A stretch of 22,648 nucleotides of DNA from a virus. The stretch lies in the IMG/VR virus record IMGVR_UViG_3300045999_009805, positions 1-22,648 of that record; one strand, written 5' to 3'. A model generated the notes under the pieces. The model worked only from the letters and a program-made list of their open reading frames with translations, was not told the DNA's origin and searched no databases. Both the position numbers and the translations under genes were made by a program. Each line of letters opens with the position of its first letter. Within the stretch, counting starts at the first letter, position 1. This document shows positions 8,572-19,466 of the stretch, piece by piece.

Positions 8572-11478
8572 ATGGGCGGCGGAATGGGCGGCGACGGCGG
8601 AATGGGCGGCGGCGGTGGCGGCGGCGGTGCAATGGGTGGTGGCGGTGGCGGCGGATCAGCAGGTGGCGGTGGCAGTAGCGGCAGTGCAATGGGCGGTGGC
8701 GGCGGCGGTGGAGCAGCAGGTGGCGGCGGTGCAATGGGTGGTGGTGGCGGAATGGTCCAAGCGGTTGTTCCGCCGCCACCGATCATTGGAATGGGTGGTG
8801 GCGCAGTATCCCGACCGACTGTTCAACCGACGCCGAGCATTGGAATGGGTGGTAGCCGTATGGCCGGAGATGCTGTACAGCAAATCGTAGGAACTGGCAA
8901 AATTTCTGGTCAAGATATCCGAGATCTCCGTGATGCAGGGATTAGTAACCAAAGAATTGGAAATTTAATCGAGAATCGTGGGGCTGGTAATAATGCATCT
9001 ACCGTAGCCAATCAATTTGGAATAAATATTCCAGGTAGTGGAATGGGCGGTGGGATGAGTGGTGGAGCAGCAGGTAGTGGAGCAGCAGGCGGTGGGGCAG
9101 CAGGTGGTGGAGGAGGTGGCGGCGGAGCAGCGGGCAGCAACATTGTCACAAATATCCCAACTCAAAGTCTCGATTTACAAACACTTCTTTCTGCTCTTAA
9201 CACGCAGCAAAGTCAACAAGATCTTCTTTTTGCATCTCAACTAGATAGACAAAATTCTGAATACTTTACTGGGCAAAGTCTGCGCCAGATTGAGGCGCTT
9301 GGCGCAGAGAATCGCCTAACAGAAAGGGTTCAAGGTGAAGAGCAACGTGCTGGGTTTGCCGCACAAGGTGCGCAACAGCGTCTAGGAATCGAAGCCACTG
9401 GGGCGCAAGAACGCAAAACACAGCAAGAACGCTTTATTGGTGAGGCAGGCCTTATTGGTGCACGCGGTTTTGAAGAACGCCTAGGAATTGAAACGACAGG
9501 AGCTCAGCAGCGCCTCACACAAGCTGATTTATTAGCTGGACAAAGAGAGCAAATTATTGAAACAGGAGCTCAGCAGCGCCTGACACAAGAAGAGCTCCTT
9601 GCGGGTCAAGAACGGCAAATTGGATTAACTGGAGCACAAGAACGTCAGACGCAAACAGAACGTTTTGCTGGTGAAACAGGACTTATTGGTGCACGCGGCA
9701 TCGAAGAACGTCTTGGGATTGAGACCACTGGAGCACAACAACGTCGAACACAAGAAGAGCTCCTTGCTGGACAAGAACGGCAGATTGGTTTAACTGGCCG
9801 AGAACAGCGGGCCACTCAAGCTGAACTTCTTGCCGGACAAGAACGACAAATTGATTTAACTGGAGCACAAGAACGTCAAACCCAGCAAGAACGTTTTGCG
9901 GGTGAGACAGGACTTATTGGTGCACGTGGGATTCAAGAACGTCTTGGGATTGAAACCACTGGGGCGCAACAGCGCCTAGGAATTGAAGCTACTGGAGCAC
10001 AGGAACGTCAAACCCAGCAAGAACGTTTTGCTGGCGAAACAGGACTTATTGGCGCACGCGGAATTCAAGAACGTCTAGGCATCGAATCCACTGGTTTACA
10101 ACAGCGTTTAGGTATTGAAGCTGCTGGTTTACAGGAACGTCAGACACAGACAGAGCGTTTTGCAGGTGAAACAGGGCTTGCTCGTATTCGCGGTGAAGAA
10201 GAGCGGCGTGGGATTGAGACTACCGGAGAACAACAACGCCGGACACAAGCCGATTTACTTACAGGTCAAGAACGGCAGATTGGTTTAACCGGCGAACAGC
10301 AGCGTCTTGGGATTGCAGCTACAGGCCGTGAAGAAAGAGCTACACAGCAAGAACGTTTTGCAGGTGAAACAGGTTTAACTCGTGTTCGCGGTGAAGAAGA
10401 GCGTGCAGGAATTGCGGCCACTGGCCGAGAGCAACGCGCCACACAGGCAGAACTGCTTGCTGGACAAGAGCGACAAATTGGGCTAACCGGACGTGAAGAA
10501 CGCCTAGGTATTGCAGCACGTGGACTTGAAGAGCGTTTAGGTATCGCTACTACTGGGCAAGAACAACGTGCTACTCAAGCCGAACTTCTTGCCGGACAAG
10601 AACGGCAGATAGGCTTAACAGGCCGAGAGCAGCGGGCCACTCAAGCTGAACTTCTTGCTGGACAGGAACGGCAGATTGGTTTAACTGGACGAGAGCAACG
10701 TGCTACCCAAGCTGAACTTCTTGCCGGACAAGAGCGACAGATCGGTCTAACCGGACAAGAAGAACGTCTGGGCATTGCAGCACGTGGACTTGAAGAGCGT
10801 TTAGGTATTACCACTACAGGCCGAGAACAGCGGGCCACTCAAGCTGAACTTCTTGCCGGACAAGAACGTCAGATTGGTTTAACCGGTGAGCAACAACGAC
10901 TCGGAATTGCAGCTACTGGAGCACAAGAACGTCAGACACAAACAGAACGTTTTGCTGGTGAAACAGGACTTATTGGTGCACGTGGAGTTCAAGAACGTCT
11001 AGGCATTGAAACGACAGGAGCTCAACAGCGGCAAACACAAGCTGATTTACTTGCCGGACAAGAACGTCAGATTGGCTTGACGGGAGAGCAACAGCGACTC
11101 GGAATTGCAGCTACTGGCGCACAAGAACGTCAGACGCAAACAGAACGTTTTGCTGGTGAAACAGGACTTATTGGTGCACGCGGTGTTGAAGAGCGCCTAG
11201 GCATCGAAACTACTGGAGCTCAACAGCGGCAAACACAAGCTGATTTACTTGCCGGACAAGAACGTCAGATTGGCTTGACGGGAGAGCAAGAGCGTGCAAC
11301 ACAGCGTGAACGGTTCGCTGGCGAAACAGGTCTCACTCGTGCTCGCGGCGAAGAAGAGCGTGCTGGAATTCGTGAAACCGGCAGTGAGCAGCGGCAAACC
11401 GGCTTGCAGCAAGAGATGTTCAGGCGCTATAAAGAAGAGCGTGATTATGAGCAGGCTCAGCGCCAGTACCGAGTATGA
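8572..11478 (+). CDS. Giant repeat protein: Gly-rich blocks plus hendecad-like repeats
   Basis: A 968-aa protein starting at ATG 8572 with a strong AAGGAG site. Residues 1-61 are nearly all Gly with Met, Ala and Ser. About 62-95 are Pro/Gly. About 96-152 look like a small helical domain (GKISGQDIRDLRDAGISNQR). A second Gly/Ala block spans about 155-190. From about residue 245 to 950 the protein is a repeat array built from GREQRATQAELLA + GQERQIGLT (22 residues) and 33-residue units such as GAQERQTQTERFA + GETGLIGARGIEERLGIETT. All are multiples of 11. Roughly a dozen AGQERQIGLT-type and eight ERFAGETGL segments occur. Eleven-residue periodicity with Gln, Arg and Glu suggests a long helical or coiled-coil rod. 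A fibre, tail-spike stem or internal rod is inferred; no catalytic motif is seen. Confidence 0.8.
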   Translation: MGGGMGGDGGMGGGGGGGGAMGGGGGGGSAGGGGSSGSAMGGGGGGGAAGGGGAMGGGGGMVQAVVPPPPIIGMGGGAVSRPTVQPTPSIGMGGSRMAGDAVQQIVGTGKISGQDIRDLRDAGISNQRIGNLIENRGAGNNASTVANQFGINIPGSGMGGGMSGGAAGSGAAGGGAAGGGGGGGGAAGSNIVTNIPTQSLDLQTLLSALNTQQSQQDLLFASQLDRQNSEYFTGQSLRQIEALGAENRLTERVQGEEQRAGFAAQGAQQRLGIEATGAQERKTQQERFIGEAGLIGARGFEERLGIETTGAQQRLTQADLLAGQREQIIETGAQQRLTQEELLAGQERQIGLTGAQERQTQTERFAGETGLIGARGIEERLGIETTGAQQRRTQEELLAGQERQIGLTGREQRATQAELLAGQERQIDLTGAQERQTQQERFAGETGLIGARGIQERLGIETTGAQQRLGIEATGAQERQTQQERFAGETGLIGARGIQERLGIESTGLQQRLGIEAAGLQERQTQTERFAGETGLARIRGEEERRGIETTGEQQRRTQADLLTGQERQIGLTGEQQRLGIAATGREERATQQERFAGETGLTRVRGEEERAGIAATGREQRATQAELLAGQERQIGLTGREERLGIAARGLEERLGIATTGQEQRATQAELLAGQERQIGLTGREQRATQAELLAGQERQIGLTGREQRATQAELLAGQERQIGLTGQEERLGIAARGLEERLGITTTGREQRATQAELLAGQERQIGLTGEQQRLGIAATGAQERQTQTERFAGETGLIGARGVQERLGIETTGAQQRQTQADLLAGQERQIGLTGEQQRLGIAATGAQERQTQTERFAGETGLIGARGVEERLGIETTGAQQRQTQADLLAGQERQIGLTGEQERATQRERFAGETGLTRARGEEERAGIRETGSEQRQTGLQQEMFRRYKEERDYEQAQRQYRV
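9307..11422 (+). repeat. Coding tandem repeat array inside the 968-aa gene
   Basis: Imperfect direct repeats of 33, 66 and 99 bp run through about 2.1 kb. Some blocks are nearly identical at DNA level, for example CTTGCCGGACAAGAACG-type segments around 10590, 10720, 10860, 11060 and 11250. The array could expand or contract by recombination and may be collapsed in short-read assemblies. Confidence 0.85.
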
Positions 11479-16519: not shown

Positions 16520-16611
16520 ACTCGTAATCCTAATAAACGACGTTTATTAGGAAAACGAGTAAACGACGTTTATTAGGAAAACGAGTAAACGACGTTTATT
16601 AGGAAAATGAG
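16520..16611. repeat. Large palindrome followed by two more 26-bp repeat units
   Basis: A near-perfect palindrome of 41 bases is centred on 16540 (ACTCGT...CCTAATAAACG-A-CGTTTATTAGG...ACGAGT); the inner 23 bases are perfect. The right half continues as three direct 26-bp units at 16534-16559, 16560-16585 and 16586-16611, the last with one change. Each unit keeps the small palindrome AAACGACGTTT. It lies between the scaffold stop and a terminator. It could fold into a strong RNA hairpin (processing, stability) or present three binding sites to a protein. Confidence 0.9.
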
Positions 16612-16623
16612 TAATTGTAAAAT

Positions 16624-17375: not shown

Positions 17376-17393
17376 TTGATAAACACAGGGTAT
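17376..17393 (+). other. Candidate first exon of the major capsid gene (tentative)
   Basis: TTG-ATA-AAC-ACA-GGG-TAT is open and in frame with the main capsid exon if splicing joins 17393 to 18330. The spliced start would read MINTGY-ENDFPKLL. Its last six bases, GGGTAT, can pair fully with GTACTC at 18102-18107 in the intron, with a terminal U-G pair as group I introns require. Against it: no ribosome site, and a TTG start for a highly expressed gene. Treat as a hypothesis. Confidence 0.3.
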
Positions 17394-18329
17394 AATTTTA
17401 TCAATGGGACGGAAGTTCCAGGCCCGCAGTAGCACCGAATTTTTTCGTTGGCTTCTGCTCCAGGGATCTTCCAGATCCTGGTTTCAGCCACATACCCCGC
17501 TGAATTACCAACATGTTCATCGATAGCTAACTCAGATCCTGATAGGTGCTCCCTTTTATGATTTGATAAACGGCTAAATGGTTGCAACCAAACTTCTCTG
17601 CTATTTTTCTATACGAAAGACCAGCAGACCTAAGTTGTTTGATTAAAGCCACATCTTCTTCGGAAAACCTCCTAAGAGATTTTTTTGCCGAGCCTTTGCT
17701 GGCATAACCGTTTTTTGAGTACCGACCGGCCTTTAAGGCTCTGTCATAGTTCTCCTTTTTGGTAACGACCTCAAGATTGCTAAGAGAATTATTTCTTTTA
17801 TTGCCATCTTTGTGATCTACCTGAAGCGAATCAGATTTAATTCCATGCAGAGTTAAATCTAGATCGAGGAATGTTATAGCCATCAAAACATGCACGTGGT
17901 AGCGAATCTTTTTCCCATCAACGGATACAGAGACGCGATCATAAGTACTTGTTGAGCTGATGGTGAGTTTCACAAAGCAATCACCTTCTTTTTGGTACGG
18001 TTGCCCAAGCTCATCTAGGCAAAGGTTTTCAAATCCAGGAACCAATTTCGGCTTCACGTTGTTCATAAACAGCTGTTCCGATACTGTAGCACTTAACCTG
18101 AGTACTCAACGTTGTCGCCTGATTAGGCAACTGATCAGTGAAAACCGGGTGAATTCAGGGAAGCCCTAACGTAAAGACGAGGGTAATCCTGAGCCAAGCC
18201 AACTAAGTTCGTAGTTGGAAGGTGCAGAGACTAGGCGGTGAATGACGCTTCATTCGTAATACGCCATTAGCGCCCGGCACCCTTACAGGGTGAAGAGATA
18301 GTCCACCCCTTCAAGAAATTGGAGATCAG
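17394..18329 (+). ncRNA. Group IA self-splicing intron in the capsid gene
   Basis: The catalytic core can be folded by hand. P3 is CCGGGT 18145-18150 with GCCCGG 18272-18277. P4 is TCAGG 18155-18159 with CCTGA 18188-18192. P5 is GCCCT 18163-18167 with AGGGT 18180-18184. P6 is GCC 18193-18195 with GGT 18221-18223; P6a is CCAACT/AGTTGG. P7 is GACTA 18229-18233 with TAGTC 18299-18303. P7.1 is GGCG/CGCC, P7.2 is GAATGA/TCATTC, and P8 is CACCC/GGGTG 18278-18292. P9 (18309-18324) is CTTCAA and TTGGAG around a GAAA tetraloop. P7.1/P7.2 mark subgroup IA. The 3' splice site is probably at 18324-18330 and the 5' site is less sure. An HNH gene lies antisense between the 5' end and the core, so it probably sits in the P1 or P2 loop. 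Confidence 0.85.
17527..18066 (-). CDS. HNH homing endonuclease, encoded antisense within the intron
   Basis: A 179-aa protein from ATG 18066 to a stop at 17527. The N-terminal 60 residues form a beta-rich region seen in phage HNH proteins (YDRVSVSVDGKKIRYHVHVL). The HNH core follows: the H-x-H region at YHVHVLMAITF, then LQVDHKDGNKRNNSLSNLEV with VDHKDGN, and then TKKENYDRA. A C-terminal DNA-binding helix-turn-helix (EEDVALIKQLRSAGLSYRKI, then AEKFGCNHLAVYQII) resembles NUMOD-type tails. Homing endonucleases nick or cut intron-less alleles so that the intron is copied across. The domain set is complete and looks functional. The odd point is its orientation, opposite to the host gene and intron, so it cannot be translated from the capsid message and needs its own leftward promoter. 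Confidence 0.9.
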   Translation of the reverse strand: MNNVKPKLVPGFENLCLDELGQPYQKEGDCFVKLTISSTSTYDRVSVSVDGKKIRYHVHVLMAITFLDLDLTLHGIKSDSLQVDHKDGNKRNNSLSNLEVVTKKENYDRALKAGRYSKNGYASKGSAKKSLRRFSEEDVALIKQLRSAGLSYRKIAEKFGCNHLAVYQIIKGSTYQDLS

Positions 18330-19466
18330 GAGAACGACTTTCCCAAGCTGTTGGGTGCGGAGCTGTACCGCCCCCATCCAGCTTATATCGTGGAGATGGC
18401 TTGCGAGCCAGTAGTCGTCCACGACTTCACCAAACAGCCGGGTCAAACCGTTCAACTTGACCGTTATCGTTTCTGGGGTAGCCCTGGAACGAAGACTAGC
18501 CGTGAGCGTACCCAGGATCAAACCATTGGTACTGCTAATAGCCGGTCTATCGTAAAGGACAAGGTGCTGGTGTCTCTGCGTGAGTACACCGGTCCCGCTG
18601 ACCCGAACAACACCAACCTCCCGAGCACCTTTAAGATTGCTCGTGAGACTCTGATGACCGCTCAGCGTCTGCTGCTGGACACCGGGAACCTTAACATGTT
18701 CCACCAGTCCATCGGTTCGCTGACCCTCCTGGACGACTATCGCCGCTGGCGCGACCGTGTGTTCCTGGACGAGCTGTTCAAGGCTGAGTCTCGCGGTGCC
18801 GCTTCTGATAGCCAGGGTGGTTACTACTACCCCAACGGTAAGACCAAATCTTCCGCGACTGCTCTCAACAACTACACCGCTACCGAGTACGCTTCTGAGC
18901 GGTTCAAGTTCAACGTCAAGACCGACCTTCTTGAGGTTGTAAAGCAGCTGCGTAAGCGTAACACCCCCGTGTTCGCTGACGGCTACTACCGTTGTATCGC
19001 CGATCCCTCTTTCATGAAGGATCTGCGTGCTGACCAGGGCTTCCGCGAAGTGGCCCGCTATCCTGGCACTGGTGTTCCTAATCCCCTGATGGGAATGATG
19101 GCCCCCAACGCTGCTCTGTACGGTGGCGGTCAGTTCGGTCAAGCTCAGTTCGTGGCTGGTGAACCCGTCATGCCTTCTGGCTTTGTGTTTGAAGGTGTGC
19201 GTTTCTTCGAATCCACCAACTTCCCCGACAAGAGTATTTCCGTCGACATCGGCAGTGGCGGCGGCTCTGCAACTCGCACTACTCCTGCTGGTCTGTTCTT
19301 CGGTCCTCAGGCTGTCGGTGTAGGTATTGGCGGTCCCAATGCTCAGGTTCTCATCAATAACAATGATGACTTCAGCCGCTTTATCATCCTGATTTGGCAG
19401 CTGTACGCCGGTTTTGCTAACCTGAATAAGGACTTCATTACCACTGCCTTCACCATCGTTGAGTGA
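18330..19466 (+). CDS. Major capsid protein, main exon
   Basis: The frame is open from just after the intron and reads ENDFPKLLGAELYRPHPAYI for about 378 residues to a TGA TAA double stop. Later segments are typical of the N4-gp56-like capsid family: a DGYYRCIADPSFMKDLRADQ stretch, GVRFFESTNFPDKS, and a final LYAGFANLNKDFITTAF. The protein forms the icosahedral shell. Codon use is strongly biased to C-ending and preferred codons (AAC, TTC, CTG, CGT, GGT), unlike the genes upstream, as expected for the most abundant virion protein. The N-terminus must come from a first exon upstream of the intron; without splicing the only start is TTG 18351, which lacks a ribosome site and would cut off conserved-looking residues. 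The identity is good, the N-terminus open. Confidence 0.85.
   Translation, partial: ENDFPKLLGAELYRPHPAYIVEMACEPVVVHDFTKQPGQTVQLDRYRFWGSPGTKTSRERTQDQTIGTANSRSIVKDKVLVSLREYTGPADPNNTNLPSTFKIARETLMTAQRLLLDTGNLNMFHQSIGSLTLLDDYRRWRDRVFLDELFKAESRGAASDSQGGYYYPNGKTKSSATALNNYTATEYASERFKFNVKTDLLEVVKQLRKRNTPVFADGYYRCIADPSFMKDLRADQGFREVARYPGTGVPNPLMGMMAPNAALYGGGQFGQAQFVAGEPVMPSGFVFEGVRFFESTNFPDKSISVDIGSGGGSATRTTPAGLFFGPQAVGVGIGGPNAQVLINNNDDFSRFIILIWQLYAGFANLNKDFITTAFTIVE

Follow-up and report, generated by a model that had tools for sequence, protein, structure and literature searches.

Capsid group I introns with an endonuclease gene on the opposite strand are already known from the mycobacteriophage LittleE (JF937101), whose capsid gene carries an 819 bp group I intron with a bottom-strand endonuclease ORF (Pope et al. 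2013, PMC3706429). Splicing of this intron was shown by RT-PCR and protein sequencing, and a capsid intron is mentioned for the lactococcal phage Tuc2009 (PMC3706429). Our search of the open-licence literature yielded LittleE as the sole example of a phage capsid intron with an antisense endonuclease. The cyanophage Pf-WMP3 carries a group IA2 intron with an HNH nicking enzyme, I-PfoP3I, for which splicing has been shown (PMC3428280). I-HmuI (1u3e), from an intron in the DNA polymerase gene of phage SPO1, is likewise a nicking homing endonuclease. In the Didymium rDNA introns of I-DirII and I-DsqI, the endonuclease gene is antisense to the intron and the endonucleases are expressed from their own transcript (PMC9548176, PMC3073962). 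Translation of intron ORFs is known to disturb splicing, and introns commonly have an in-frame stop shortly downstream of the 5' splice site (PMC3073962, PMC3984707).

The window, by which we mean the whole 22,648-nt stretch analysed, is a 22.6-kb virus record which, as judged from its capsid gene, is an S-EIV1-like cyanophage: exon 2 of this gene shows 71% DNA identity to cyanophage S-EIV1 over 98% of its length. We conclude that its major capsid gene very probably contains a mobile, self-splicing group IA-type intron. As in LittleE, where the HNH gene is annotated on the minus strand of the record, a group I intron in the major capsid gene is combined with an antisense HNH gene. The window intron represents a well-populated family with a layout of its own. 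In LittleE, the HNH gene lies 3' of the core (core 559-762, HNH 765-1298 of L210), whereas in the window it lies in the P1 loop. The LittleE insertion is far within the gene at nt 496 (PMC11855218), that of the window at codon 4. The two endonucleases have no detectable similarity (BLASTP E 46), and the LittleE core reaches only 30.7 bits against RF00028. The Pf-WMP3 intron shares P7.1/P7.2, a 4-bp P10 and an HNH enzyme with the window, but it sits in a DNA polymerase gene, has no P2, and its ORF begins within P6a and forms part of P6, P7 and P7.1/P7.2. The Didymium introns differ in being eukaryotic nuclear rDNA introns of group IE (L2066) with His-Cys enzymes and, for I-DsqI, an insertion in P9.2. 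Related cores are found in the psbA group I intron of cyanophage S-CBWM1 (70% DNA identity) and in Klebsiella jumbo phage introns (77-79%; 243-nt query, 67-73% covered in both cases), which unlike the window intron occupy other genes or unannotated positions. A phage collection searched with the whole cassette gave no similarity.

The host gene encodes the major head protein (PHROG 1357, E 4.7e-16), in agreement with the capsid assignment of an earlier note made from the bare sequence. It is split after codon 4 (MFID / NDFPK, ATG at 17513): ATG TTC ATC GAT is followed by 808 nt and then by AAC GAC TTT CCC from 18333. Intronless alleles in relatives, which the earlier note had named as a check, do exist and have the exact empty site ATG TTT ATT GAT / AAC GAT TTT CCC. 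The spliced frame of the window has 381 aa, begins MFIDNDFPKLLGAEL and has the same MFID/NDFPK join as these relatives. From the empty sites and the P1/P10 pairing, the intron is placed at 17525-18332 on the plus strand. The interval 17394-18329 given in the earlier note is wrong at both ends: 17394 sits within the TATAAT box, so that some 130 nt belonging to the capsid leader and exon 1 had been included, and 18329 falls 3 nt before the 3' splice site. Read without splicing, the window gives MFIDS and then UAA at 17528-17530. Of the 68 distinct introns, 64 have an in-frame sense stop at intron nt 4-6, among them introns that lack the HNH gene. In S-EIV1 itself (KJ410740, 60784-62010), the capsid frame has 383 aa with a GTG start and reads MFIDTDFPK; in its place the record shows an antisense ORF and a C-terminal fragment. 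The annotation of both genomes is thereby corrected, where automated gene calling had missed the capsid gene or broken it up.

Table 1. Features of the capsid intron locus, in window positions.
Feature	Position	Strand	Basis or detail
Possible capsid transcript start	17376..17396	+	TATAAT 17391-17396
Capsid leader, co-converted with the intron	17397..17512	+	flank comparisons
Capsid exon 1, ATG TTC ATC GAT (MFID), 12 nt	17513..17524	+	intronless relatives; spliced ORF
P1 5' strand, exon CGAU	17521..17524	+	last U wobbles with G18114; exon -4/guide covariation 68/68
HNH homing endonuclease gene, 176 aa	17527..18057	-	probable start GTG 18057, stop TAG 17529-17527; within P1 loop
P1-extension 5' strand ACUCAG	17530..17535	+	partner CUGAGU 18098-18103; L050 has GCUCAG/CUGAGC
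Internal guide sequence CGUUGUCG	18110..18117	+	18110-18113 in P10, 18114-18117 in P1
P2 hairpin, GCAA tetraloop	18119..18138	+	double changes in 7/8 pairs
Catalytic core P3-P4-P5-P6-P6a-P7(5')-P7.1/P7.2-P3(3')	18145..18277	+	Rfam match, covariation
P7.1/P7.2 (IA hallmark)	18234..18265	+	double changes in 3/4 and 6/6 pairs
P8, P7 3' strand (18299-18303), P9 with GAAA loop (18309-18324)	18278..18324	+	Rfam, covariation
Capsid exon 2 (NDFPK...IVE-stop)	18333..19466	+	AACG 18333-18336 in P10; PHROG match

In the guide CGUU-GUCG, the GUCG half pairs with exon CGAU, forming a U-G wobble at the splice site; the CGUU half pairs with the AACG that opens exon 2. A T at the end of exon 1 and a G at the end of the intron are found in 68/68 distinct introns. 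At exon position -4, the pair with the guide partner is T-A in 43 and C-G in 25 of them, with no exceptions. P1 is 100% paired with a compensatory change; for P10, 94% of cells are paired, as AACG/CGUU or as wobble or compensated variants, with position +4 unpaired in a few introns. The P1 loop of the window intron houses both the P1 extension and the HNH gene. L122, the minimal intron with 230 nt, has P1 reduced to the simple hairpin CGAU|AGC-UAAC-GUUGUCG. A candidate guide at 17542-17548 (GAUAGGUG against the exon) was rejected for its imperfect pairing and is also countered by the ACUCAG/CUGAGU extension and the L122 hairpin, which put the guide at 18110-18117. With splicing at AUC|GAG (intron end 18329) the frame would be kept, but exon 1 would then end in C and both P1 and P10 fail.

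The ribozyme matches Rfam RF00028 at 18098-18325 on the plus strand with 97.1 bits (E 2.8e-24, gathering threshold 50), and this is the sole group I core in the window record. In an alignment of 21 distinct cores of relatives with the HNH gene omitted, every helix is 94-100% paired and 32 pairs are changed on both sides. When the partners are slid by 1-3 columns as a control, only 29-43% are paired and 3-10 pairs show double changes. P2 to P9 are paired and covarying, including P7.1/P7.2 with double changes in 9/10 pairs, and the fold is kept in seven distinct introns that lack the HNH gene. The P3-P9 fold with P7.1/P7.2 and a GAAA P9 loop pairs as the earlier note had described, and its group IA assignment is borne out by the covariation of P7.1/P7.2. 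By these pairings the intron is of group IA type, an assignment made at the level of IA as a whole.

The minus-strand ORF in the P1 loop matches Pfam HNH_3 with 1.6e-10. Its product combines an HNH motif, with the active-site region intact, and a helix-turn-helix-like C-terminus. The best PDB match is I-HmuI (1u3e), both by sequence (E 7e-7) and by an AlphaFold2 model of pLDDT 82 (E 6.9e-8); the HNH region and the helix-turn-helix-like part are common to both proteins, which are about 23% identical in the structural alignment and belong to different host genes. A genome collection searched with the HNH protein gave only two weak bacterial matches of 34-39% identity. Relatives have ATG, GTG or TTG at the position matching 18057, which probably is the start, and ATG 18066 was set aside for this reason. 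The dN/dS values of 0.05-0.10, for pairs with unsaturated dS, indicate that the HNH protein is under strong purifying selection, and with the Pfam match they uphold the antisense HNH gene proposed before. Its stop overlaps the sense stop, as CTAA or CTAG is a stop on both strands, and the antisense TAG is present in 62/68 distinct introns. HNH-less introns of 230-271 nt are found in L050, L107, L121, L122, L086, L104 and L105; between L121 and L113, the P1 loop differs by the clean absence or presence of a 539-nt HNH segment.

The distribution of the intron is patchy. In the capsid-based sample L001-L080, it is present in 10 loci and absent in 65, always at one identical site and with intronless alleles in close relatives. 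On a tree of 77 exon 2 sequences, intron state must have changed at least 10 times to account for the well-supported branches. The nearest capsid neighbour of the window, L001, is 99% identical in exon 2 and has no intron and a different leader. Between the window and L001, identity is about 92-100% from -800 to -140 and again in exon 2, and drops to 30-65% in the 100 nt before the ATG. Against the intron-containing L010 and L128, the window is 90-100% identical from -140 to +120 (mostly 97-100%), compared with 38-81% upstream and mostly 79-93% downstream of this block. Intron-containing alleles share a block of about -140 to +120 around the site, with the capsid leader swapped. Among pairs with at least 96% identity in exon 2, leader identity is 99.8% when both have the intron, 94.9% when neither has it and 53.3% for mixed pairs, and the difference between the first and the last was matched by none of 500 label shuffles. 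Exceptions are L040, intronless with an intron-type leader, and L122, with the intron and an intronless-type leader. We use co-conversion for the joint movement of intron and flanks by recombination, a term that does not by itself imply the HNH protein as initiator. The state changes on the capsid tree and the co-converted flanks argue strongly for a mobile intron, as had been suggested at the outset.

The swapped block may contain the capsid transcript start. TATAAT lies 79-153 nt ahead of the ATG in 59/68 distinct leaders. TTGATA at 17376-17381 is only 9 nt upstream of it in the window, too near for a normal -35 box. In most leaders, scored promoters were not above shuffles, and no consistent capsid -35 box was found. 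The window leader folds with a z of -2.3 and has a hairpin TTCAGC/GCTGAA at 17483-17504, 8 nt before the capsid ATG; most relatives have a TCAGC/GCTGA-type hairpin 7-9 nt ahead of it. No Shine-Dalgarno-like motif was found near the capsid ATG in the window leader or in those of relatives. Further upstream, between two genes, the window has three tandem copies of a partly palindromic 26-bp unit, TAAACGACGTTTATTAGGAAAACGAG, at 16534-16614. Elsewhere, at 8572-11478, it encodes a 968-aa protein with a glycine-rich start and long 66/132/198-bp repeats.

Additional introns and endonuclease genes were observed in relatives. One capsid gene, L092:2600-7329 (IMGVR_UViG_3300001847_000509), has five interruptions, after residues 4, 31, 54, 88 and 148, all of which gave group I matches (E 5e-23 to 1e-7). 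An antisense HNH gene lies in its intron 1 and a sense LAGLIDADG gene in intron 4; the ORF of intron 5 is antisense and shows LAGLIDADG-like motifs. In L089, L105, L112, L114, L115, L120, L123, L173 and L202, the capsid gene has further insertions after residues of about 18, 39-50, 90 and 285, which make this gene an intron hot spot. In L089, L105, L112, L114, L115, L120 and L123, a LAGLIDADG-type gene lies just upstream of the capsid leader, outside the intron, and points away from the capsid; the Pfam match is on the L089 protein. In L087 and L097, related introns lacking an ORF sit immediately past the start codon of a different phage gene, judging by eye at MALVVP|DVGE and MPMVTP|NAGE. Upstream of them, L087 has a LAGLIDADG-like ORF pointing away and L097 another minus-strand ORF. 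On another viral contig (L102:437-1031), a tmRNA gene shares its 3' part with a group I core of the window's type.

The antisense orientation is kept throughout the family. Among 30 distinct introns found via the core, the ORF is antisense in all 23 that have a long ORF. In a separate search by the HNH protein alone, the best 80 loci were taken and 79 examined; the HNH gene is antisense and upstream of the same core in 79/79. This capsid gene adjoins wherever the contig reaches, which is in all but three of the 79; these three (L168, L185, L191) have short flanks. No other insertion site for the HNH gene was seen among its best 80 matches. This uniformity in every long-ORF intron and all 79 HNH loci suggests that the orientation was fixed early and kept. 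The earlier note held that the HNH gene must have its own promoter; a consensus promoter scan found none just upstream of the HNH start, and its sole minus-strand match, at 17816, is inside the gene. In several relatives, a weak element of the form TTGA(C/G)T-15/17-TAnnnT, some 50 nt ahead of the HNH gene, scores above most shuffles, while in the window 43% of shuffles score as high. We do not claim a minus-strand sigma-70 promoter from this element, suggestive in relatives and weak in the window. A leftward message from just upstream of the HNH gene would span the P1 loop and the 5' splice site, and if it continued would reach the capsid start and leader; the catalytic core at 18111-18332 would lie outside it.

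Three other explanations have to be weighed. The capsid protein could be made from an internal start, with the segment as a mere intergenic insertion and no spliced intron, and an ORF from TTG 18351 does exist. Intronless relatives, however, encode MFIDNDFPKLLGAEL in one frame and S-EIV1 does likewise, P1 and P10 covary with the exons, and the whole ribozyme covaries, which makes this explanation extremely improbable. An intron that still splices and is no longer mobile would leave the HNH protein as a relic or with another use, for example as a repressor, and the patchiness as ordinary leader recombination. General recombination could indeed yield a joint block of intron and leader, and some alleles lack the HNH gene. 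The shared block is nevertheless centred on the insertion site with both sides included, the low dN/dS and intact active-site region speak against a relic, and the confinement of the HNH gene to one site among its best 80 matches is as expected of a site-specific endonuclease. We regard a loss of mobility as quite improbable; most likely, the endonuclease spreads the intron.

It is also conceivable, along the lines of the antisense tuning of splicing raised in the earlier note, that the leftward HNH transcript has been recruited as a regulator. It would bind the capsid RNA from its start region through the 5' splice site into the P1 loop and delay capsid splicing or translation until late infection. 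The strict conservation of the orientation would fit this, as would the HNH stop 2 nt inside the intron, owing to which read-through covers the capsid start and leader. No minus-strand terminator-like site was found between this stop and about 16642, and an antisense RNA linking psbA with an endonuclease gene is reported for cyanophage (Millard et al. 2010, as cited in PMC3428280). The orientation is, however, explained equally by one inherited ancestral insertion or by avoidance of a conflict between ribosome and ribozyme, and the seven distinct HNH-less introns keep the ribozyme fold. Recruitment of the transcript as a regulator is unlikely. We likewise give little credence to a broader view, in which the leftward transcript is kept as useful, separating translation from folding and timing the capsid by antisense RNA, and homing, by replacing the capsid leader and TATAAT box at each event, spreads a capsid expression cassette along with the intron.

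For the mobile intron that we favour, the capsid pre-mRNA would self-splice by the usual two guanosine-initiated steps, and on unspliced RNA the stop at intron nt 4-6 would halt ribosomes after five codons. The HNH protein would act on capsid genes without the intron, cutting or nicking them at MFID|NDFPK, and their repair would copy the intron together with about 140 bp of upstream flank, including leader and TATAAT box, and about 110 bp of exon 2. With the HNH gene antisense, HNH ribosomes would never enter the intron RNA and the HNH frame would be absent from the capsid message. The placement probably avoids ribosomes entering the ribozyme; it would resolve the conflict between endonuclease translation and splicing and would need a separate leftward transcript. 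On the capsid side, exon 1 has only 12 nt, and a ribosome initiating there would already lie over the 5' splice site, for which reason splicing and initiation should compete.

From these sequence comparisons, the intron family is large, conserved and recently moving, and its 68 distinct introns provide a large natural data set. With it, one can test whether an endonuclease gene placed antisense escapes the clash of its translation with splicing, and how splicing proceeds with a 12-nt coding exon under an initiating ribosome. It would also allow testing whether homing rewires capsid expression through the leader swap.
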